Source of the DNA: Xiphophorus maculatus
Lineage: Eukaryota; Chordata; Actinopteri; Cyprinodontiformes; Poeciliidae
Direction: 5' to 3'
DNA length: 64,000 bases
NCBI RefSeq assembly: GCF_002775205.1
Contig: NC_036461.1
Location: 15,289,015-15,353,014, forward strand
Shown piece by piece: positions 27,915 through 64,000 of this stretch; position 1 is the first letter of the stretch; every line of letters begins with the position of its first letter. The position numbers were made by a program, and so were the translations under genes. The notes beneath the pieces were generated by a model. The model saw only the letters and a list, made by a program, of their open reading frames with translations, did not search any database and was not told where the DNA came from.

Positions 27915-30900
27915 ATGAATTCCTGTGAGGATGGAGGAAATTCAAATGAAGCAATGCTTGAGAAAGGTAAGTCACAAACATCCTTATCGGTGGTGTGGTG
28001 TGGCATAACTGCGTTAATTTATTCTAATCCTGGGATTATTTACAGAGCATCAGCACATTCAGGATGTTAAAAAGGAGAAAGAAGATTTTGCTGTTTGTGA
28101 ACGAACTCAACCACATGAAGGAGGGTCTCCTGAAGTGTCAGAGGCCAATAAAAGGTCGTCCGCTGAGACACATCAGTCCACCAGTAAAAAGAGAGCCAGA
28201 GTCTGCTCTGAGGTAAAAAAAATAATCCTAGATTAAATTACTTAACCAACTTTTATTTTCTCATATTTCATCTTACAAAAGCTGTTAATCTTTTAAGGTG
28301 GTCCTTATCAATAGTTTTATAGGCTTTAGTGGTCTTTCATTGTTTTGTTGTTGTTTTTTTTAACTTTGACTCTTTTTTTCAAATTCATTTAAAATTTTCC
28401 TTCAAACAACCATATATTATAAGTATTTATCTGTAACCAACAAATCAAACCAAGTAAGCAAAGAAATAGTTTAGAACGAGAAGAGATCCATCATAATTGA
28501 AGTCTAAATCTGGGATTACCACAAACTAACCTACAGAAGATTAAGAATACATGAAAAGGATGTAATTAAATGCCATATGCTAACCATACATTTGTAATTT
28601 GCCTAAAGAAGCATTTTTCCAAACCATTGGAGACAACAAGAAAGACTGCCTGTTTGGAATGAAATGCAAAAATGAAAAAAACAACATACTGTGGTGAAAC
28701 GTACTTTATCTGTATAGATCAATGTGCTTATCTTCTTTTTGCTTTTGTGTTTGGTGGGCATTTATTTGAAAGGTGTTTGTTCTTTGTAGGTGAGGAAGTG
28801 TCTGACAGATGAGAGCCACAGGCATGAGCCTCTTTGCCTCACCATGGCTGGAGAAAAGGCCCACTGTATCCAGGAGAGATCAAGGCTTTCCTACAGAAAG
28901 CCTCTTTTCAGCATCTCTCACAGGATTTCAGACAAGAGAAACCCACCAAGTCTGGATCAGCAGGCTAACCACGGCGGCTTGAGTCAGCTCAGCTTCAGCA
29001 GCATCCTTTCACAGAAGCTCCAAAGTCCAGAAATAAACGGCCCAGGTGACATCCTCACCGCCACAGAGTCCTTGGGTCAGACGTCAGCAACAGAGTCAAA
29101 CCTTTACCCACTGATTGAGAAAATGTTTTTCATCCTCAATACCCTGAACTCCAGCATGACTCAGCTGCACAGTAAAGTGGACTTGCTAACGCTGGAAGTC
29201 ATGCGTATAAAGAAGCAGATCAAGCCTGCTGAGAGGATGGCAGACTTCCAGCCTCCTCCTGAATATCTCCTAACGAATGATGAACTCAATCAGCTGATGG
29301 AGCACACCTCCAGCGCCGGAGAGCTCAGCTGCCAGCTGCTTGTCCACCTTTTCCCAGAACTGTTCAAAGCCAAGGAGTGCCCCCATGACTGCATGGCAAG
29401 CAAGAGAACGCTGGAATCTCTGCACCTGCAGCTGATCCGGAACTACGTGGAGGTTTGTTATCCCTCGGTGAAAAACAACAGTGTCTGGCAGGAGGAGTGC
29501 CTCCTTCAGATCAATGACTTTTTTAATCGCTTCTGGGCACAGAGGGACATGGAAAGCGCTCGGCTCATCAAGAAGCAGGCGGTCACTGGTGATGAGATGA
29601 AAGTGGAGTTTCCTCAGACATATCGCTTCATTAATGAACAGGGTCAGGAGGAGGATGTATCCCTGGATAATCAGCAAGGTAGCCTGCCAGTGTCCGATGA
29701 TGGGTTAAATACTCAAGCTGCAGAAGAGCAGGACGACTTCTCCTCGCCGGAAGATTTTGTGATTTTCCTCATGCATCGTCTCTTCCCAGAGCTTTTTGAA
29801 GAGGGAAAAATTCCCGAAGTCTCCAGCAGTTACAGTAATGTGGGCCAGCTCATTCTGGACTCCGACAAGATGGAGATCCTGAGGAAGTACATGGAAGCAA
29901 ATTTTCCTGACATCCCTGAGGACAGCTGGCTTCAGTTGTGCATCCAGCATATGGAGGACACACTGGAAGGGCCACACAGCAATGGGAATGGGAGTGAATC
30001 TGACAACATCAACTACGATGGCTATGACCTGGCCGGCTTTCAGGAAGACCTTCCTGTCATCGGGGCTCCAGAAGCCGGTGAATTTGATAGACCTTATCGC
30101 AAGTCCAAGAAGTCGCTGCTCGCAACCGTGGATTTTGAAAATCTGAAGATTCCTCCACCTGACTTCAGCATTCCCCAGGAGTACATCTTATCTAGAGAGC
30201 AGCTGAAAAGCAACTATGAATGTAGCTTGTCCATTGGCAACTTTGCCTCACGCCTGCTGGTGCTCATGTTTCCCGAGCTCTTCACCCATGAGAATACTAG
30301 AAAGCAGTACAACTGCAGTGGTTCTCTTGGGAAAAAGCAGCTCGATCCTGTGCGTGTGAATCTGATCCGACATTATGTGCAGCTGGTCTACCCTCGAGCC
30401 AGGAACGACAGAGTGTGGATGCTTGAATTTGTGGGCAAATTGGATGAGAGGTGCAGGAGGCGGGACACGGAGCAGAGAAGATCTTACCTGCAACAGCGCA
30501 AAGTTGGTGGCCAAGAGCTAGAGCAGGAATTTCTCTGCCACATCAACCACATCACTCCAGACACTAGAGAGGATTCAGACATTCCCTCTTTACCTCCCGA
30601 GAAAAGCAGCAAAGACTTCTGTAAGATCCCCCTCGACAAACTGACCATTTCCCAACCGGACTTCCCCGTACCTTCCGCCTACCTATTATCGGACTCTGAG
30701 GTGCGGGAGGTCGTCCAGCAGAGCCTTTCTGTTGGGAACTTTGCCGCACGGTTGCTGGTGCGGCTCTTCCCGGAGCTGTTCACTCCGGAGAACCTACGAC
30801 TCCAGTACAACCACTCGGGCGCCTGCAACAAGAAGCAGCTGGACCCGGTCCGGTTGAGGTTGATCCGTCATTACGTGGAAGCGGTGTACCCCGTGGAGAA

Positions 30901-31018
30901 GATGGAGGAGGTGTGGCACTATGAATGTGTGCCAAGCATTGACGAACGCTGCCGGCGGCCGAACCGCAAGAAGTGTGACATTCTTAAAAAGGCCAAGAGG
31001 TCAAACACTGTGTCATAG
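27915..31018 (+). CDS. bend3: BEN domain-containing protein 3
   Basis: Nuclear transcriptional repressor of heterochromatin and of CpG-bearing promoters in mammals. CDS exons: 27915-27966, 28046-28212 and 28790-31018, giving 815 residues (human 828). The start MNS matches human MNSTEF. Four BEN domains lie at about residues 230-330, 385-470, 535-635 and 700-800, each with the LLV.LFPELF signature; the second has the variant FLMHRLFPELF. RARV-type basic residues follow KKR near residue 68. A helical segment with MTQLHSKVDLLTLEVMRIKK (about 190-215) is nearly identical to human. BEN3 and BEN4 are the best conserved (CSGSLGKKQLDP, HSGACNKKQLDP). The C-terminus CDILKKAKR matches human CDILKKAKK. 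Poly(A) signal AATAAA at 31312-31317. It is convergent with mtres1. Confidence 0.96.
28213..28789 (+). other. bend3 third intron
   Basis: 577 bases of AT-rich sequence with GTAAAA donor and TTTGTAG acceptor. No repeat or signal was recognised. Confidence 0.6.
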
Positions 31019-39152: not shown

Positions 39153-42998
<3,846 letters not shown>

Positions 42999-52600: not shown

Positions 52601-54930
52601 AGGAAGGGGTTTAATTTAACCCAGACGACCTACAGAACATGTAAGGATTGCAACCACTTTGTCCCAGGTTCTGATCCTGGTTCCATTCCGGGGGGCCGCT
52701 CTGCAAGTTGTCCACACTCTCATCAGCCTGCTGGAGACCAAAGGCAAGAAGATAATCGTCAGCAACAAGAAGAAGTTCAAGGAGGAGTTTGGAGAAACGG
52801 AGGAAGAAAAACCAGCCAACCTGCGCCGGCCTGATGATTACCACGCCGTCTTCTCTGGCAATCTGGATGATCACTTCAGGATAGGTACGTCTTCACATAA
52901 GGAGTTTCTAAAAACCTCCACCACTTATCTGACCCTACACCCTGATGGTTCTGCACTCTCCCTCCCAGGTGTGTCCATAGTGAGGGGCAACATGCGTCTC
53001 TACGCCCCCTTCTACTCATCAGACATCATCATTGCGTCTCCGCTCGGCCTCCGAACGGTGCTGGGAGCAGAAGGAGAGAGTAAGAGAGACTACGACTTCC
53101 TGTCATCCATTGAGCTGCTGGTGCTGGATCAGACTGACGTCTTCCTCATGCAGAACTGGGAGCATGTCTTGGTATGAGGAGTTTACATGTGGCACCACCT
53201 GCTGTTGAAGTTTTCCATTCTTCATAACTAGAATATTAAGTCTATCAAAATAGGCTAGAAATTTTGGGCTTTTGAACCAGCGATTTTTAAGATTTAAAAC
53301 TCAAATGTCAACATGTATCTAACTAGTTCAGCATTCTTCTTCAATATATTATTTTTAGTTATCTTGATTTGTTTTGTCAAGCTGGATGGTTCTGCTACTG
53401 CAATGTTCTGTTTAAAGCATAGTAATTATTGATCTGTAAACTACAAACCTAACGTGTTCATGTGTTTAAGTTTGTAAGTGTTGTCCTCACCCTGCAGCAT
53501 GTGATGAAGCACATGAACCTGCAGCCGCTGGACTCCCACGGAGTCGACTTTTCCAGAGTGCGGATGTGGAACCTGAACAACTGGGCCAGACACTACAGAC
53601 AGACGCTGGTGTTCAGCTCCATCCAGGACCCGCAGATCAACAACATCCTCACTAAACACTGTGTCAACTACAGAGGACAGGTCAGGCAGTAGAGATACTT
53701 GCTCATTTTTGTATTTCAAAGATCTGAAATCTTATGACTCGTTTACACCGAGCCGATCTTCAGTGAAGCCATAACATTTTCTGCTGCGATCCAGCCGCTC
53801 GTTTCCTTGATACCAGTGAGTCTCTCACACCGGCACTTTTTGAAACCAGGTTTCAGCGGGAAACTTTTCTGTAACACCCCCTGCAGAGGTGTTACCATTC
53901 TTCGACAATAAAAAAATCTGTGTAACAGCATCTGAACATTGTAGCTTTATGAAACGGTAACAATATCAGAGATTTGTCATTGTTAAGTTGATCTAATTGT
54001 ATCTATCCACTGATTCATACACTTCATTTATTTTAACCTTCATAGTTTTCTTAATTTAAGCATGCTTGAGTAGGAAATCATTGCATGTCATTATTAACAC
54101 CTGACTGAAATTTGTATGCTTTGTGTTTTGGTTTTTGTCTCAGATTACAACAAAAAACATGCCAAAGACAGGCTCCATCTGCCAGGTGCTGGTTCAGCTG
54201 CCTCATGTGTTCCAGATGTTTTCATCCGACAGCTTCATGAATCAAGATGCTCGGTACGTGACTCAACTAAAACAACTTTTTAAGCTCCTCACTGTGCCTT
54301 TTGCTTGAACTATCCTTCATCATCTCCTTCATCTGCTTGTAGGTTTCAGTTCTTCATTGATAAAGTACTTCCTCAGTACAGGGACTCTGTCATGTCCCAC
54401 ACTCTCATCTACATCCCGTCCTACTTTGACTACATCCGACTGCGAAATCACATGAAGAAAGAGGAGATTAACTTCACGTCCGTGTGCGAGTATTCCAGCA
54501 AGTCAGAGGTCTCTCGAGCCAGGCATTTTTTTCTGAAAGGAGAAAAACAGTTCCTGCTCTTCACCGAGCGCTTCCACTTCTACAAAAGGTCTGTTCTTCT
54601 TTTCCTATCCATCAAATTGTGTGGTAACTCCTATTCTACTTGTAACAATCTGCTCACATCGTTCTTATTTCATTCAGGTACACTATCAAAGGGATGAAGA
54701 ACCTGATATTTTACGGCCTGCCCACCTTCCCCCACTTCTACAGTGAGGTGTGCAACATGCTGGCAGCAGGAGGTCAGGGGGAGGAGGCCAGCTGGACCTG
54801 CACTGCCCTCTATTCCCGCTACGATGCCCACAAGCTGGCTGCCATCACCGGAGCCCAGCGAGCCGGACAGATGCTGCACTCCAACAAAAACGTTCACCTT
54901 TTTATCACAGGAGCAGAGGACAAAGCCTGA
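49691..54930 (+). CDS. utp25: U3 snoRNA-associated protein 25 homolog (digestive organ expansion factor)
   Basis: Nucleolar small-subunit processome factor needed for 18S rRNA maturation; zebrafish loss shrinks the digestive organs (diexf/def). Twelve exons: 49691-49791, 50354-50393, 50619-50799, 50881-51093, 51182-51270, 51457-51867, 52668-52884, 52969-53171, 53498-53680, 54144-54253, 54343-54588 and 54678-54930. All join in phase into 748 residues (human 756). A basic N-terminus (MGKRRQNKQ) precedes a long acidic region (about 47-180). The rest is a helicase-like fold lacking catalytic motifs: VLILVPFR (about 346), then LLVLDQTD (about 468-474) in place of a DEAD box. [36 protein letters not shown] and the end [10 protein letters not shown] are almost human. 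The intron after 50799 starts with GC. AATAAA at 54973-54978. Confidence 0.96.
49998..50028. repeat. Perfect 12-bp inverted repeat in utp25 intron 1
   Basis: ATTAAGAAGCAA (49998-50009) and TTGCTTCTTAAT (50017-50028) pair over a 7-base loop. A second small palindromic run, AACATTTAATGTTAAATGTT, lies close by. Confidence 0.85.
50800..50805 (+). other. GC-type splice donor of utp25
   Basis: Exon 3 ends TTTGAAG and the intron opens GCGAGG. Joining to the acceptor ending at 50880 gives [10 protein letters not shown] in phase. The nearest downstream GT would create a stop, so a GC-AG intron of only 81 bases is the best model. It lies in an acidic, poorly conserved region, so homology does not fix it as firmly as the pdss2 case. 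Confidence 0.6.
51868..52667 (+). other. utp25 intron 6
   Basis: 800 bases of AT-rich sequence between exons ending TRPK and starting VLILVPFR. No repeat was recognised; the acceptor is TTTGTCCCAG. Confidence 0.6.
53681..54143 (+). other. utp25 intron 9
   Basis: 463 bases, no recognised element; GTCAGG donor and TTGTCTCAG acceptor. Confidence 0.6.
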
Positions 54931-54984: not shown

Positions 54985-56725
54985 CTTTCTTTTCCTATCG
55001 CAAATATGTGTTGGTTTATTGGATTTGTTGATGCATTTCTAAAGGGGCCATAAAAAATCTAATCTTACATAAACATTACCATAATGGTTGTTCAGAAGTG
55101 CTGATTACCAGGGAAATATTTCCTCATCTGTTTGTTGGTTTGAGTGCTTTGATTTAGCGACATCAGAGCTGATTAAATCATTTTTGTGACTCAGGTGTAT
55201 TGAAAGTGTCAAATATGGAAGCCTGTTTGTACCAATAGTCAAAAAAATATATCACTCCCAATAAACGTTACAAATGAATAAAGTGCTGAAATTTATGGGA
55301 TACTACAGCATTTCTCTTCAAAGTTAAAAAGGTAAGTAAGTTGAGTTTAATTATACAGCGACAATTCATAATGAGTGAGTAGGTAAATGTCTGTATATCA
55401 TTTAAAAAATTGTGATCCATTTTAGAATTTTGTTTCAAAACATGTTTTGTGGAAAAATATAATTGATTTTACATTTTTGAGTCAGCTAACTTTTTTGTGT
55501 TAATTACATTTCCAAAAATGTCCTATTTGCTGGTGATTCCAATTATTTCTTAAAAGATCTAAGATTGTCATTTATCAGAACAAACATGCTATTCTGCTTT
55601 ATTAAGTTACCTTTTACTTTTTTGTTTAAAATCACAAAATTGCAACCAACAAATTTCTAAAAAATTAGTTTATGAGCTCCAGAGAAATAATTTGCCTTTT
55701 CTGGAAATTACCTTGTAAGATCAGATAAATTAACCTTTAGAAAAGTAGCCATGAGATCATAAGAAGATCTCATTAACATTGACTGAACATCCTAGAAAGA
55801 ACCCTGTGAACTTGAAAATGGTAACATGTAATGTAAGATGCAAAAATGTAATCCTTAATATTTGGAAAGTACACTGTTAATTTACATGGAAGTAATCTGT
55901 AAGTAGGCCACATAATCACAAAAAGTAAGCTTTAAATTCCCTAAGAATTATATGTTCGCTCCAGAGAATTAACTTGTAAACTCTGGGATGTAAACTTTTA
56001 GTCCAAAAAATATTGCCTGAATATTTCATAAGGATTGTTGCCAGTTCCACAAAGTTATCCTGACCATTATGGTAATGGAAACTCAACTGTCCCAAAAAGT
56101 ATCCAATCAGTGTTGAAAAGTGTCCAGTTAGTAGGAATACAATGTGTAAGCGATAGAGAACATCCTGTGTAATGAGTTATTGAAGTTCTTTAAAGTTAAC
56201 CTGAACCTTCAAGAGTACATTGTAGGTTCTAGAAATCAGTCTGTAAATTGTGGATTCAGCCTGTTGCTACTAGGAAAATGGGAGCTGTATAATACAAGCC
56301 TTAGTTGGTTTTCTTTTTTCATACAGAATCCTAATTTTTGCAGTTGTACTGAATAGTTTTATAAGCATTTGTCTAATTTCTGTCACGTTTGCATTTGGTA
56401 ATAATGGCCTCCCATAGATGACTAAGCACATGCTGAGCTACTTCTGAGATTATAAAACAGAAGCACTTGCGCAAAGCAGGAGAGACTTTCCAAACCAATA
56501 GTTATCAGGAGTAAAAACAAAAGACAGCATAATAAAGAAATATAATTATCACCAACTGCAGTGATCCGTTCAAAATGATAAGCTGTTAGGTAAGACATCA
56601 CCTGTTCAGATGCTGTATGAATCGCACACATAATTATTAACTTCAAGAGTGACTTTGGTCATGAAATTACAGTTTTGCTCCGCTGCCGGAGCTGACACGC
56701 AGCAGATGGTCTCTAACCCGCAGAG
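54985..56725. other. utp25-SLC7 array interval
   Basis: AT-rich; a decayed short-period tandem repeat fills about 55640-56265. The last 300 bases should contain the promoter of the first SLC7 copy, but no TATA box or other site was recognised with confidence. Confidence 0.5.
55640..56265. repeat. Degenerate tandem array with roughly 20-25 bp period
   Basis: Variants of one word recur along the stretch: CTCCAGAGAAATAATTTG, CTGGAAATTACCTTGTAAG, CTAGAAAGAACCCTGTGAA, CATGGAAGTAATCTGTAAG, CTCCAGAGAATTAACTTGTA and CTAGAAATCAGTCTGTAAAT. The consensus is near CCAGAAA.TAACCTGTAA. The units are highly diverged, so this is an old minisatellite-like array. Confidence 0.6.
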
Positions 56726-57427
56726 ATGATGGAAGAGAAGCAGCAGAAGCTCAGCCTGAAGCGAGAGGTGGGGCTGGTAGGAGCCGTGTCGCTGATTGCG
56801 GGAACAATGATCGGATCTGGGATCTTCATGTCCCCGCAGACAGTCATCTCCTCCATCGGCAGCTCTGGAGCCAGCCTGGTGTTGTGGGCCAGCTGTGGCT
56901 TGTTGGTGATACTGGTGTCTTTCTGCTATGCTGAACTGGGAACCGTTATCCAAGAGTCAGGAGGAGAGTACATCTACATCCTCAGGACGTCAGGTCCAGT
57001 CATGGCCTTCATGTTGGCCTTCAGCTCTATCTTATTTGTGAGGCCTGCTGGAGTTGCAGGCATCTCCCTGAGCTTCGCCCAGTATGTCGTGGCTCCGTTC
57101 TACCCAGAATGCCCTCCTCCAGTGTCTGTAGTGAAATGTGTGGCTGCAGTTGCAATCTTGGTTTTAGCCATCGTAAACTGCATGAATGTTCGCTTTTCAA
57201 TGTCAGTGCAAGTGTTTTTTATGGTGGCTAAGGTGGTGGCTTTGGGAATCATAGTTGTAGGAGGGGTGGTCATGCTTGCCAAAGGAAACGCGGAAAGTTT
57301 TCAAAACTCCTTTGAGAACTCAAACGTGGGCATCCATCCCATTGGTATTGCTCTCTACCAGGGACTGTGGTCGTATGACGGCTGGAACAATCTGAACTAT
57401 GTGACAGAGGAGCTCAAACGTCCAGAG
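56726..57427 (+). CDS. SLC7 (b0,+AT-like) amino-acid transporter, copy 1, first exon
   Basis: Light subunit type amino-acid exchanger of the plasma membrane; relatives pair with an SLC3 heavy chain. The single exon encodes 234 residues from MMEEKQQKLSLKREVG to the GTAAGA donor after ELKRPE. The TM1 motif GTMIGSGIFMSP, the CYAELGT.I.ESGGEY block, FAQYVVAPFYPECPPP and YDGWNNLNYVTEELKRPE are family hallmarks, closest by eye to human SLC7A9 and SLC7A13; human SLC7A13, as remembered, also has a large first exon ending at the same place. It covers about six membrane helices. The second half of the protein was not found in the 730 bases before the Ty3/gypsy fossil or beyond it. The frame is undamaged. 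Confidence 0.85.
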
Positions 57428-58159
57428 GTAAGAAGTCACAAAATAAATCAGGCAAACCTATAAACAAAAATTCAAATCTGCACTAGAGTACTCATAAACT
57501 TTATATGGCATTGTAAACTTCAAGTGCACTGCATAATTAAACAGCTTGCGGTGCCATCTGTAGTAGCAATACAGTTATTTTATTTACTCTGATCTTATCA
57601 GCTTTTTACATCATCATGGAACTAATTTTAGTCCAGTTTTTACAATAATACTGCAAAGTTCAGACCTAAATCTCTCAGGGTCAAGGCCTTGACCAATACT
57701 GTTAACTAAAAACTGCAGTTTGAGCTTAATCAATGTTTTTAACAGCAAAATAACAAAATCAGCTAAAAGAAATACCAATCAGTAAGTTGTCCGCCTTATG
57801 AACTGGCTGTCTATGGATAGAAAGTGGAGTCACACATTCACTTAGACATGTAAACACCCCTTAGAAAGTCCCCTACCTAGGATTAGTATCCTAGAACCTT
57901 GTTCATGTGTTGCAGCAGTTCTAACAGATGGCCCGCTTTTAGGAAATTCAGGTTTTGAGACATTTGGCGGCTTTCCTAAATGTTTGCGATTTGTTAATCT
58001 TTCTCACTAAATGATAAATGATTGGCAGAAGTCACTGCTTCTGACAGGTTGATGTATTTGTGTTCACACACTCTTCTTTGCCCCATCTTAATCTCCTGCT
58101 TTTGCAGAAGTACTGCTGACTATCATTTAAGCACTAGTTCATTTATTTATCAGCACATT
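57428..58159 (+). other. Sequence between SLC7 copy 1 and the LTR element
   Basis: No SLC7 exon was recognised in any plus-strand frame and no repeat was identified. It is the only room for continuing exons before the retroelement. Confidence 0.55.
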
Positions 58160-58346
58160 TGTTATGTTTGGAAGCTAGGACGAGGTAGAAGCTCAAGTAG
58201 ACAGAGAACCCTTAACAGCTTTTATTCATAACTTGCTCAGCAGTACAGTAACATCAAGTATTCCTTTCCTCCATCTTATCTCTTCTTCTTCTTCTCTCTC
58301 TCCTCTCTATCCTATTCTCGTACACCACCTAGTGGTAGACACAACA
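58160..58346 (-). repeat. Solo-visible LTR of the Ty3/gypsy fossil (3' LTR)
   Basis: 187 bp bounded by TGTTATG and ACACAACA, so the ends are TG and CA with a four-base inverted repeat. Adjacent to a purine tract on the element strand. A matching second LTR was not seen to the right of the coding part. Confidence 0.7.
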
Positions 58347-61300
58347 TTCCCCCTTTACTTGAAAAGATTGCATGTACCCATTTAGTATAAGACTGAACAT
58401 CAACCTCATTTAACAGTTTGTATGTCACAAATATAACTTTAGCTGTAATCAAAGTAGGTAATTACTTAAGTACACACAACCAAAGAAATATATTCAGCAA
58501 CCCTGTACTTTTTAAACTCTAACACTTGAAGTTACTATGGAAAATAATTACCAAATTTAACTATTGTAAACATGAAATCCAGGTATTTGTAACCAGTTTG
58601 TACCATGAGAATTAGTTCACCTGAACCCTAAACATGTAACACACAATCATTTATGCATTTATTCATCTTTTGTTTAACCTGGTTGAAAGTCCTTGAACCA
58701 CACAGGTCGAGCAGAAGTTCTAGCACTTTTCCTCTGAACCACAGGGTCATGCTTATCTGGTTTTGTTGTTTCACGTGGAATACCTGCAGAATAGCGTGAA
58801 AGTCTGGCAGCATTCCACCTTTTATTGTCACTGAGTACATAAGTACTTCCTCCAATCTGTTTTTCAACAGACAGTGGTGAAGTAAATCTTGATGAGCCTT
58901 TGCGAACATGATCAGGTCTTTTTACCCTCACCATGTCTCCAGGTTTGAATGTTGGTGTCTTTGCTCCACGGCGCTTGTCAGTATACTGTTTAGACTTCTC
59001 TTGTTTCTGTCTAACTGTTTCTTGGACTGTAGTGCATTTTCTGCTTTTCTCTGAAGTTGGAAAGATGTTCACTTTTGTTTTCATCTTCCTATTGTGCAGT
59101 AGTTCTGATGGAGATACTCCAGTTGTGTTATGTGGCGTTGCTCTGTAGTTTTGTAGGAAATCAGTCACTGTAGTTTTCCAGTCTTTCTGCATGTGTTCAG
59201 CAGTTAGGATTGTCTCCTTAAGAACTCTATTCCATCTTTCAACAGCACCATTGCACTGTGGATGGTACACACTTGTACGCAGATGAGATATTCCCCTTTC
59301 TCTGAGAAAATCTGCAAAAGAGCTGGAAAGAAACTGCGGCCCATTATCAGTGACTATGTAGTCGGGGTTCCCCTCTCTGCTGAAAATAGAGCGTAGAAAT
59401 GTGAGAACAACATCAGTAGTTACAGTGTGAGAAAATGCCACCTCTGGCCATTTACTGTAATAGTCCACTAATGTTATAGCGAATCTACATTAAGAAGCAG
59501 CAGTTTCAAAGGGACCCACGATGTCTAGAGCCACTTTCTCCCACGGTCTGTTCGGCAGTTCAATGGGTTGGAGAGGAGCAGGAGCAGTTTGAGCAGATTT
59601 GTCGTTCATTTGGCAGGTCATACATGAAGAAATAACAGACTGAACCATTTTGTCCATCTGAGGCCACCAGTAGAGGTCACGAAGTCTCTGTTTAGTGCGA
59701 ACAACACCTTGATGTGTTTCATGTGCCCGATGAATGACAGTAGCACGTAAAGCAACAGGAACGATGTATCGATGTTCACCTCTCATGACCAGATCCTGAG
59801 ATGCAGAAAGTTCATTCCTGATGTGGAAGTATGGTATTAAGACAGGGTCCACATCCTTCTTGCACTTTGGCCAGCCCTTCTCTATCTGTCCACGGAGGAG
59901 TGTGAGTTCATGGCATTGAGAGGAAGCAGAAGTGAACTCAGTGACGGACAGAGCTGACACAATGGATGCAACCATGTCAGGTTCATCTACAGGAGTAGAG
60001 TCCATAGGGAGTGGCAACCATGACAAGCAGTCTGCAGCCTGGTTTTGTGATCCAGGCCTGTATTCCAAATCGTAGGTGAAGCATAGCAAACGTGCAGACC
60101 AGCGTGCGACTCTCATTCCAGCACGCCCAATGCCTTTGGTAGCGAGTAGTGTTGTCAGTGCCTGATGATCAGTTCTTAGCGTGAAACGTCTGCCCCAGAG
60201 ATAAGACCTCCATTTTTCCACGGCCCACACACAAGCAAGAGCCTCCTTTTCTACTGTAGAGTATTTTCGTTCTGTAGAGGTCAGAGTTCGAGATGCAAAT
60301 GCAACAGTTCGTTCAGTATTATCTGGGTGTATTTGGGTCAACACATCACCCAGTCCGTAGTCTGAAGCGTCTGTAGTGACAATGGTTGGGAGAGATGGGT
60401 CAAAAAGAGCCAGAACAGGACTGTTCAGTAAAAGCTCTTTTAATTCCTTAAAGCTTTGATCAGCCCCTTCAGTCCATATGAAACCAGAGTCAACAGTGTC
60501 TCTCAGTACAGCCCGCATTGGTTCCACTACTGTGGCAAAATTGGGAAGGAATTTACTGTACCAGGAGATTAAACCCAGGAAGGAGTGCAGAGATGGTAGA
60601 TCATGTGGTGGTGGGGCATCACGGACAGCTGCACTATGGTCTGGATCAGGAAGGATGCCATCTTTGGAAATGATGTGGCCAAGAAATCTGAGGCTGGACT
60701 GTCTAAATGTACATTTTTGCATGTTGAGTGTCAGACCTGCATCCGTAAGACGCTGGAGCACAGCACGCAGGCGTCTGTCATGTTCCTGTAGAGAAGATCC
60801 TGCAACAATTACATCATCCAAGTAATTGTGCACACCAGGTAGCCCTTTAAGCACAGTTTCCATCATTTTCTGGAATGCAGATGGAGCAGAGGCCAACCCG
60901 TAGGGGACACGGCAGTAGCGGAAAAGTCCTTTGTGTGTAATGAAAGCCATGAGGTCCCGACTGTTCTCATGTAGTAGAAGTTGGTGGTATGCAGATGCCA
61001 GATCTATGGTGGAGAAAACATAGGCACCCCTGAGCTCACTTAAAAGCTCGTCCATGTGGGGCAAAGGATGACTGTCTGCAACAATAGCTTTATTAGGTTC
61101 TCTTAAGTCAACACATAGTCTTGGTCTGCCTTCCTTTCTTGTTGTGACCACAATAGGAGAAATCCAGGGAGAAGCATCAATGTGTTCGATAATACCCTCC
61201 TTCAGAAGTAGATCCAGTTCCTGTGACACAGCTTCTCGTACTGCAAATGGAAGTCGTCTGAGTTTTTGCTGAACTGGGACTGCATCCTCACGTACTTTAA

Positions 61301-61450
61301 CTTTGTGCACAAACCCAGCAACACAGCCAATAGAAGCAGAGTCTGTTTTTGTTAGCAACACAGGTGCAGCAGAAGGAACTAATATTTTTATGTCCATTCT
61401 GGGTTTTCCATGTGTTGTTGTATCTCTTAAGTCTGACCTTTGAATTTAAA
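58160..61450 (-). mobile_element. Ty3/gypsy LTR retrotransposon fossil, 5'-truncated
   Basis: Minus-strand element with reverse transcriptase, RNase H and integrase regions in Ty3/gypsy order, the integrase side facing the single recognised LTR. That LTR spans 58160-58346 (187 bp, TGTT...AACA ends), with a purine-rich tract just inside it at about 58347-58356. The gag region and the other LTR were not found, so the right-hand edge is approximate. The element is broken: besides the missing 5' part, the pol frame has about one or two breaks. The long remaining open stretches suggest a fairly young insertion. It sits between SLC7 copies 1 and 2. Confidence 0.88.
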
Positions 61451-61895
61451 CAGTAATTTTCTTCACATGACCATGCACTCTGCATGCAACACTAAGCCCC
61501 TGTAGATAGTTTATCAGTGGTTTAAAGAAGCAATAAAATAAGGTCAGGTCAATCAACAAACCGTTTAAAGACAGCCAAGAAATACAGTGCTTTAAATTTG
61601 ACTTTGCTTAGTTTAATTTGAAGAAGTTGGTCTCATTAGGTAATATCAAGAAGAGAGAGAAAGAGCACTAAATATATGCATGAGTTTCACATTCTTAAAT
61701 CTCAGCCTAATATAGTCAAACAAATGAAAGCAGCTCGAAAAGATGTCAAGGTCAAACAAGAAACATCTCCGTTCTTGACAAATCAAGAGTAGTTTTACTA
61801 CCTGTTGCTCTGTTTAACATTACCTAATGGTAATCTATGCCAAGATCTGAGGTGTGTTTAGTGGAAATCCGAGCAGGCAGTAGCATTCTCCAACA
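61451..61895. other. Sequence upstream of SLC7 copy 2
   Basis: AT-rich, with no recognised exon or LTR. It presumably contains the copy 2 promoter; no clear core motif was seen. Confidence 0.5.
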
Positions 61896-62585
61896 ATGGA
61901 GCAAGGACTGAGTCTGAAGCGGGAAGTTGGGATAATAGGAGCCATGTCCTTCATTGCTGGGACCATGATAGGATCTGGGATCTTCATTTCTCCACAGTAT
62001 GTCCTGCTAGCAATCGGCAGCCCCGGGGCCAGCTTCATCATATGGGCCTGCTGCGGCCTGATAGCCATGCTGGGTGGCCTCTGCTATGCTGAACTGGGGA
62101 CGATCATACCAGAGTCTGGAGGGGAGTACATCTACATGCTACGGACAGCTGGAAAAATCACAGCCTTCGTGTTTGTCTTCAGTTTCATCAGTGTCATGAG
62201 GCCAGCCAGCGCCACTGGGATCGCCCTGAGCTGCGCTGAATATGTGGTGGCCCCGTTTTATAGTGGCTGCGCCCCTCCACAGCTGGTCTTAAAATGTGTG
62301 GCAGCTGTGGCGATCCTGGCCTTGGCTCTGGTCAACTGTCTCAGTGTCCGTTTGGCCACCAGCATCCAGGTGGTCACCATGGCCATTAAAGCACTGACGC
62401 TGGCGGTGATCATACTGGGAGGAGCAGTGATGCTTTTTCAGGGCAACACTGCAAACTTTGAGGACTCTTTTGATGAAACGAATGTAGGCGTGAAAGCCAT
62501 CGGCATTGCTTTCTATCAGGGCCTGTGGCCTTATGATGGCTGGAATACTTTAAACTATTTAACTGAGGAGCTCAAACGACCAGAA
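61896..62585 (+). CDS. SLC7 (b0,+AT-like) amino-acid transporter, copy 2, first exon
   Basis: Encodes 230 residues from MEQGLSLKREVG to a GTAAGA donor after ELKRPE, the same position as in copy 1. GTMIGSGIFISPQ, CYAELGTIIPESGGEYIYML, CAEYVVAPFYSGCAPP and YDGWNTLNYLTEELKRPE are intact. Identity to copy 1 is roughly two thirds, so the duplication is not recent. As in copy 1, no later exon is present before the next copy begins 800 bases on. The frame is intact, which argues for selection after duplication. Confidence 0.85.
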
Positions 62586-62746
62586 GTAAGACTGATCAGA
62601 TTTGCTATTATTTCTTAACAGTTTGCAAAAACATGTAATTAATCTCTTAAAGTGGTCTGGATAAATAGTTATGTGGGATTTCTGAAAGTTTCTTTAAGTT
62701 TTTCTTAGGACTTTGACTGCTTTACCTTTTATTCTCTGTATAGTTA

Positions 62747-63094
62747 TTGTTCCTGATAACACTCGCTGGTGGTGTTGGAGTGGAAATGAGTGACAAGTGT
62801 AAGAAGCAGCTAATGTCTAAGGAAAAGCTTAGAAAGTCTGAAGAACTGAGCTATGTTACTAAACATGATAGTCATGCTGGGTGGGCTCTGCTGGTCACAT
62901 CAGAGCTTGGAAAAGAAATACATCTGTATCTGCTGTTGACTGTGGGGGAAATTTCATGTTTCTTTTCAGTTGCATCAATGTCTGCCTGGTTCTTTTACCA
63001 AAGTTGTAAGAAAATCTTTGAAAGATATGAAAACCCTGAGAAAGATTTCAAGAAAGTCTGGCTTCTTGGACCAAATGAAATTACAAAGTATTGA
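62747..63094 (+). other. Unrecognised 115-codon open frame between SLC7 copies 2 and 3
   Basis: Opens at MFLITLAGGVGVEMSDKCKK and ends NEITKY. An acceptor-like CTCTGTATAG ends at 62743, just before it. A hydrophobic segment (HLYLLLTVGEISCFFSVASM, about residues 59-78) is followed by a lysine-rich tail. It does not resemble any SLC7 exon, and no family was recognised. It could be an exon of an unknown gene, a decayed transposon frame, or chance in AT-rich DNA. Confidence 0.3.
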
Positions 63095-63383
63095 AACTTC
63101 ATTCCATTTTGTGTGTTGATTCCAGTGAGCTAAAATAACAGAAGAGTTAAAGCTGGTGTTTAATTAACCAAAGCTGCCCCAGCTATAGATACAATGATCC
63201 TAGCAGCTTATATGATGTGAGTTTATGATCAACTGATGGAAGAAAAAACATTTACAACCACACTTTAGTTAATCATATAGTCTGCTGACTTGCTGCCCTC
63301 TGACCAGTTACTGAGGTCTGTGTCTGCAGACTTATTGAGGTTTCTGTTGGAGCTATTTGGTCTCCTTTATTCCAGTTTCCATC
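63095..63383. other. Sequence upstream of SLC7 copy 3
   Basis: No exon or repeat was recognised; probably holds the copy 3 5' UTR. Confidence 0.4.
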
Positions 63384-64000
63384 ATGGCAAATAAAAAAGC
63401 AGAAGCACTGAAAATGAAGCAGGTGATTGGACTGGCTGGAGGCATAGCTATGGTATCGGGAACCATGATCGGTTCTGGGATATTCATGTCCCCACAGTTT
63501 GTTCTGGCCTGCGTGGGAAGCCCTGGAGCGAGTCTGCTGATCTGGGCCCTCTCGGGAGCCGTGGCTCTGTTTGCTGTGCTGTCCTACACCGAACTTGGGA
63601 CCATCCTCCCTGAATCGGGAGGGAAGTTCATCTACATCCTCAAGATATATGGTTCATTTCCTGCTTTCTTCGCCGCTGTCACTTTTATCCTGCTGGTGAA
63701 ACCTTTCAGCATCGCTGCCATGTCCATCAGCATAGCAGAGTATGCCATGGCGCCATTTTACTTCGGCTGTCAGCCTCCCTAGCTGGCTGTGAAATGCACC
63801 GCTGCTGTCGCCATCCTGGTTGTTTCTACTCTCAACATCCTGAATGCCCGCATTGCTGTCAGGGTCCAAGTGACCTTCTTGGTGGCCAAAGTTTTAACAC
63901 TTGCAGTCATTGTGGTTGATGGGATGGTGCAGGTCATAAAGAGCAGCGATGTGTTTATGGAAAATTTAAAAGTTGAAAACTCATTTAAAGAGACAGATTA
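63384..64000 (+). pseudogene. SLC7 (b0,+AT-like) amino-acid transporter, copy 3, with nonsense codon
   Basis: Starts MANKKAEALKMKQVIGLAGG and carries GTMIGSGIFMSPQ, TELGTILPESGGKFIYIL and AEYAMAPFYFGCQPP. Codon 133 is TAG (63780-63782) where copies 1 and 2 have non-stop codons and human SLC7A9 has Q; a CAG to TAG change fits. The same frame stays open and SLC7-like after it (LAVKCTAAVAILVVSTLN and onward) to the window edge. So this is either a young pseudogene, a segregating null allele or a sequencing error. Two further Mets upstream at 63357 are in frame but less likely starts. Confidence 0.7.

Follow-up and report, generated by a model that had tools for sequence, protein, structure and literature searches.

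Background

Variable-first-exon clusters are known in enzymes (UGT1, GCNT2) and in adhesion proteins (protocadherins). This text describes a locus in Xiphophorus maculatus where the same kind of cluster is, with good probability, found in a transporter gene. The gene is an SLC7 light chain of the b0,+AT type. It sits at the end of a stretch of 64 kb (C19:15289015-15353014), here called the window, in a genome of 704 Mb in 101 contigs. The gene runs on past the window, and positions in the 50 kb of contig that follow (stretch L009) are given as 64000 plus the position in L009.

Among known systems, the UGT1 cluster comes closest. Ugt1 clusters are described as having tandem variable first exons, common constant exons, and some first exons that are pseudogenes or relics (PMC1885805, PMC2819257). 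In UGT1 (Ugt1a/Ugt1b) as described there, and also at the present locus, large homologous first exons in tandem stand for the substrate-recognition half, next to one constant set and some dead or relic first exons. The differences are that UGT1 is an enzyme with four constant exons, while here we have a transporter with five constant exons, two intact plus two dead first exons, and predicted transcripts.

The original prediction for this DNA had compared the locus to the clustered protocadherins. These also join large variable exons to constant exons (PMC2819257). UGT1 is closer, and here the swap would take place within one membrane fold.

Among transporters, no variable-first-exon cluster was found in the literature searched, which lacks most subscription journals; the titles listed there concern UGT, protocadherins, CD44, CTCF or cancer, and the one paper that pairs variable first exons with solute carriers maps start sites in the retina. 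Automatic annotation may already list several first exons for the gene studied here. SLC7A13 and SLC7A15 (arpAT) are SLC7 genes with few exons and a large first coding exon. We know of no variable first exons for either.

If the reading given here is true, an anatomy like that of UGT1 and the protocadherins occurs in a transporter. It would provide a natural set of half-swapped transporters for asking which half sets selectivity. It would also mean that duplication of a single exon is a route to diversity for a gene whose first half has no introns.

Exon structure of the locus

Three SLC7-like first exons lie in tandem, and each codes for transmembrane helices (TM) 1-6:

56726-57427, plus strand: variable first exon 1 (copy 1), intact, from ATG to donor GAG/GTAAGA, phase 0, 234 amino acids
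61896-62585, plus strand: variable first exon 2 (copy 2), intact, from ATG to donor GAA/GTAAGA, phase 0, 230 amino acids
63384-64108 (the window ends at 64000), plus strand: variable first exon 3 (copy 3), dead, from ATG, 725 nt, donor GAG/GTGAGA

That there are three large SLC7 first exons here, of some six helices each, was already claimed in the original prediction, and both Pfam and PDB matches agree. The open stretches of the three copies match PF13520 with E-values of 1.6e-35, 8e-32 and 1.1e-11, matches far stronger than chance would give. The best PDB relatives are chains of b0,+AT (SLC7A9, the light chain of system b0,+, which works with rBAT as its partner and trades cationic for neutral amino acids), with 251 bits for copy 1 and 253 bits for copy 2. 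For copy 1 the xCT consensus comes close to this with 248 bits, while SLC7A13 reaches only 113.

Copies 1 and 2 were also said to be open, with a good donor at one common codon. This is indeed so: in both, GTAAGA comes directly after ELKRPE, in phase 0. All three copies are homologous first exons of similar length with a start codon and a donor of the same phase, copies 1 and 2 fully, and copy 3 with two lesions. The first of these is a TAG in frame (63780-63782). The second is an 8-nt tandem duplication (64074-64089) that shifts the frame, so that the end of the exon is out of frame.

Amino acid identity is 63% between copies 1 and 2, 47% between copies 1 and 3, and 48% between copies 2 and 3. 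For nucleotides the numbers are 67.5%, 60.0% and 59.8%, in the same order. The earlier description of intact frames at about two-thirds identity therefore fits copies 1 and 2, but not copy 3, which is broken and stands at around 60% of nucleotides.

For the second half of the protein, a single set of exons was found. This complete set of second-half exons begins 600 bp past copy 3, wholly beyond the window:

64709-64842 (L009 709-842), plus strand: shared exon 2, second-half exon
64920-65049 (L009 920-1049), plus strand: shared exon 3, second-half exon
65140-65264 (L009 1140-1264), plus strand: shared exon 4, second-half exon
65351-65438 (L009 1351-1438), plus strand: shared exon 5, second-half exon
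65517-65747 (L009 1517-1747), plus strand: shared exon 6, second-half exon, with TGA at its end

All five acceptors are AG, all four donors are GT, and the phases match the donors of copies 1 and 2. A single 3' set past 64000 is what had been proposed, and extending the sequence by 50 kb brought it to light. The joint frame of these exons is open up to the TGA, for 235 amino acids, and again has b0,+AT as its top match (241 bits). Searched alone, each of the two intact first exons and also the shared half thus has b0,+AT as its best PDB match. Predicted joins to the shared exons are in frame, giving 469 amino acids from copy 1 and 465 from copy 2. The joined sequences span PF13520 positions 2-412 and 4-412 of 427 in one stretch (215 and 204 bits), which is a complete APC-fold permease domain.

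Within the window, no second-half exon was found when b0,+AT, the xCT consensus and LAT1 each supplied a second half as tblastn query, or with a profile of the three. This agrees with the earlier remark that no exon for TM7-12 is visible between the copies, and it also means that these searches saw no private 3' exons inside the window. The only tblastn matches there with E < 0.1 are the ends of the first exons (E 4e-8 to 4e-5). The profile gives 2.9e-7 for each of these ends, and its next match is at 1.1. Since the second-half queries share these ends, they serve as a built-in sensitivity control.

No second complete set was found in the 114 kb formed by the window and the 50 kb downstream. 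A match at 72955-73161 resembles a second-half exon when the xCT consensus is used (E 8.5e-4), but with the locus's own exons its E-value is 1.4, and it was dropped. A genome-wide search with the joined second half, in which all 48 candidates were scored, gave 35 matches. Five are the shared exons (77-99% identity), and the other 30 have at most 64%.

The single 3' set, the matching phases and the selection described below all support the alternative-first-exon cluster of the original prediction, and among the tests made on sequence nothing turned up that had been named there as refuting it. Quite probably, then, this is one gene of the b0,+AT type whose variable first exons are spliced to shared 3' exons. 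Each first exon (TM1-6) would splice in phase 0 to the same five exons, which provide TM7-12 and the C-terminus. Transcripts starting at copy 1 or copy 2 would then lead to two transporters with the second half in common. We infer that copies 1 and 2 are both transcribed and that both are spliced to these exons. In this reading copy 3, like a fourth relic described below, is a first exon that has died.

Selection and decay

The original prediction also suggested computing the ratio of nonsynonymous to synonymous divergence (dN/dS) among the copies. Between copies 1 and 2, dN is 0.247 and dS is 1.777 by the NG86 method. The ratio is about 0.14, far below 1, and three other methods give similar results. 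The bootstrap range is 0.078-0.207 over 289 of 300 replicates (11 were saturated), and one of four sub-blocks is also saturated. For copies 1 and 3 the NG86 ratio is 0.25, and for copies 2 and 3 it is 0.26, in both cases with the stop codon left out. Over their divergence, copies 1 and 2 would be expected to pick up some 36 stops if there were no selection; none is observed. Copies 1 and 2 have clearly been under selection over the long run, and the cluster is very likely functional.

It is conceivable, given the broken copy 3, that the whole array is dying. Copies 1 and 2 would then be what is left of complete tandem genes after a recent loss of their 3' halves. Only copy 3's gene would have kept its exons, and it died too, so that the decaying array would have no working product. 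A short neutral time could leave copies 1 and 2 free of stops by chance, with a probability of 0.44 at a divergence d of 0.02 and of 0.13 at d = 0.05. If frameshifts are included, however, the chance of intactness is 0.026 at d = 0.02 and 1e-4 at d = 0.05, with an assumed 0.12 indels for every substitution. There must also have been at least two independent 3' losses, with the first exon and its donor untouched each time. In addition, the shared exons are fully open. A decaying array is therefore improbable.

Remains of lost exons bear on the same question. One first-exon relic was found:

62866-62982 (117 bp), plus strand: relic of a fourth first exon, located between copies 2 and 3; its alignment to copy 2 covers nt 164-300 of that copy

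It was first noticed as a 25/27 repeat. The local alignment with copy 2 scores 24, and dinucleotide shuffles have a maximum of 16 (0 of 300 reach 24). By blastn the relic is split into a collinear pair of matches (E 1.4e-6 and 7e-4). When this interval is aligned to copy 1 or copy 3 instead, the score is 12 in each case, which is background. The search consisted of 18 interval-by-copy tests, and the gypsy stretch at 58601-61449 was covered by blastn instead. The remaining 17 tests are within the shuffled range; the lowest are 6/300 (downstream, copy 1) and 12/300 (upstream, copy 1). These scores are from alignments with stiff gaps; with cheap gaps, DNA alignment does not discriminate (502, with a shuffle maximum of 501).

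The relic implies that first exons have been duplicated and lost at this locus. No convincing relic of exons 2-6 was found in the intervals searched. That a first-exon relic was kept, with no convincing second-half relic beside it, makes duplication of first exons only a better reading than loss of 3' halves. First exons that are dead or left as relics, like copy 3 and 62866-62982, are common in UGT1-type clusters, but not strictly defining.

A number of observations count against the shared-exon cluster. A stretch of 23 residues at 62930-62998 is weakly similar to TM10 (E 1.4), and might be taken for a relic of a private 3' half, as a decaying array would have. It scores 46, 47 and 42 against the locus, the xCT consensus and b0,+AT, values reached by 1, 2 and 13 of 1000 shuffles; for LAT1 it is 305/1000. 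It overlaps the first-exon relic, and is read here as a chance similarity. On a simple splice matrix, the scores are low for two of the shared-exon donors (GTACCT and GTCAGT) and for one acceptor. From the donor of copy 1 to shared exon 2 the distance is 7.3 kb, and a retroelement lies in between. The dS between copies 1 and 2 is near saturation, and the ratio covers the long run and not the recent past. Finally, the death of copy 3 may be recent, as its lesions are few, and that the shared exons have stayed intact after it is then weak evidence by itself.

Because copy 3 is dead, a full-length product of the shared exons must come from copy 1, copy 2 or an unseen first exon. As an argument that copies 1 and 2 use the shared exons, this is suggestive rather than conclusive.

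Downstream of copy 2 there is also an open reading frame of 116 codons (62744-63094), in phase 0 and directly after an AG. It could in principle serve copy 2 as a terminal exon of its own, and the product would then be a short protein of six helices with a new tail. The frame right behind an acceptor-like AG is suitable for this, and the weak TM10-like stretch falls within it. It has no Pfam match at E <= 1, however, and its GC content at third codon positions is 0.38, compared to 0.60 in copy 2. It also overlaps the first-exon relic, in another frame. The open reading frame is probably there by chance. It was dropped as a relic of TM10-11, and as a terminal exon it is highly improbable.

How a first exon may be chosen

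If the first exons are indeed spliced to a shared set, the choice between them could be made by promoters or by splicing. We infer choice by promoter, and for copy 1 there is a candidate:

56451-56457, plus strand: TATA-like box, candidate promoter of copy 1's own, 275 bp upstream of the ATG; weak evidence

It is the sole match to TATAWA when 1 kb of upstream sequence is searched for every copy, so over that distance copies 2 and 3 have no TATA-like box.

The first coding exons may alternatively be mutually exclusive internal exons, behind a common 5' noncoding exon and promoter. This differs from the reading preferred here only in how the choice is made. Acceptor-like sites are found 2 nt before the ATG of copy 1 (56724, score 3.7) and 8 nt before that of copy 3 (63376, score 5.7), where the 95th percentile of background is 2.9 and the 99th is 5.8. 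These sites weigh against private promoters to the extent that they fit a 5' noncoding exon equally well, and copy 1 may have such an exon. Copy 2 has no acceptor-like site within 150 bp upstream (the best scores -3.2), and so looks like a true first exon, and copy 1 does have its own TATA-like box. There is a reported precedent in zebrafish Ugt5a1-5a4, and the zebrafish UGT genes use both promoter choice and a common 5' exon (PMC2819257). Separate promoters and a common 5' exon are both possible for this locus, with the common exon the rather unlikely one.

The half that would be exchanged

The first exon takes in TM1-5, which form the first inverted repeat of the fold, and also TM6. On the scale of human b0,+AT, the join to the shared exons lies just past TM6. 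Between copies 1 and 2, the residue is different at 85 of the 230 aligned positions.

In a study of b0,+AT (PMC9110406), Cys144 is the cysteine of the disulfide with the heavy chain, Asp233 serves cationic substrates and its neutral replacements abolish ornithine transport, and Tyr408 is a tyrosine of the distal pocket. Another paper lists Trp230, Asp233 and Gln237 as substrate-binding residues (PMC12959773). Equivalents of Cys144 and Trp230 are present in copies 1, 2 and 3. The Asp233 equivalent is Asp in copies 1 and 2, as in b0,+AT, and Ala in the dead copy 3. At position 237, where human has Gln, copies 1-3 have Asn, Thr and Asn. At position 231, human has Ala and the copies have Ser, Pro and Ser. 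The equivalent of Tyr408 would fall in the shared half.

This means that the two forms would differ in the half that carries TM1, TM6 and the substrate residues named above. Judging by these residues, both forms can presumably carry cationic substrates, and they may differ in side-chain selectivity. It is reasonably probable that the choice of first exon exchanges the substrate-residue half (TM1-6 of the LeuT/APC fold). There would then be two light chains with a constant second half and with different selectivity or tissue use, and with UGT1-like gain and loss of first exons.

Relation to other SLC7 genes

PF13520 is found in at least 24 places in the genome, three of which are copies 1-3. 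The stretches around the 21 other places were compared by tblastn. The first half comes in at least two pieces in eight LAT-type loci and in an xCT-like locus, and one locus (L022) is too incomplete to judge. One open frame likewise holds the first half of L002, a distant SLC7A4/14-like gene that is 22% identical to copy 2.

The family search overlooked the SLC7A9 orthologue, which was pointed to by the genome search with the second half (C4:11143693-11146273). It lies at C4:11143600-11149599, and its pieces are 58-86% identical to human b0,+AT. Copies 1 and 2 have 49% and 53% identity to the human protein over 226 residues. This rules out the studied locus as the SLC7A9 orthologue itself, since the C4 gene is closer to human b0,+AT. 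A locus at C23:30814174 was also considered for this role. Its first exons were promising, but its second half reads as xCT-like by its motifs.

In the orthologue the first half is divided over at least four pieces, in contrast to the single exon here. From this comparison, the studied locus is a separate b0,+AT-like paralogue in which a single exon has come to hold the first half. Because it is one exon, it can be duplicated as a unit. The pieces of the orthologue have a border beside the join (ELKNP / YRNLPLAI) and another where shared exon 2 ends; the later borders do not all coincide. The join is thus an old intron position.

At C18:7640000-7669999 there is a pair of identical CAT-like first exons, at a distance of 9.6 kb from each other. 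They lie inside a block that is 100% identical over at least 2,246 bp, and second-half matches follow the downstream first exon only. As a possible second array this was set aside, since the identical block is either an artefact of assembly or a partial duplication of very recent date.

Other features of the window

The retroelement downstream of copy 1 is incidental:

58674-61445, minus strand: Ty3/gypsy pol fragment located between copies 1 and 2, with reverse transcriptase, RNase H and integrase

It comes in two open pieces, one with reverse transcriptase and RNase H and one with integrase. A repeat search of 55000-64000 found no pair of long direct repeats (long terminal repeats). Further upstream, Pfam matches identify a BEN-domain protein at 28790-31015, a member of the TMEM151 family at 39156-40676 (minus strand), and UTP25 at 52620-53174.

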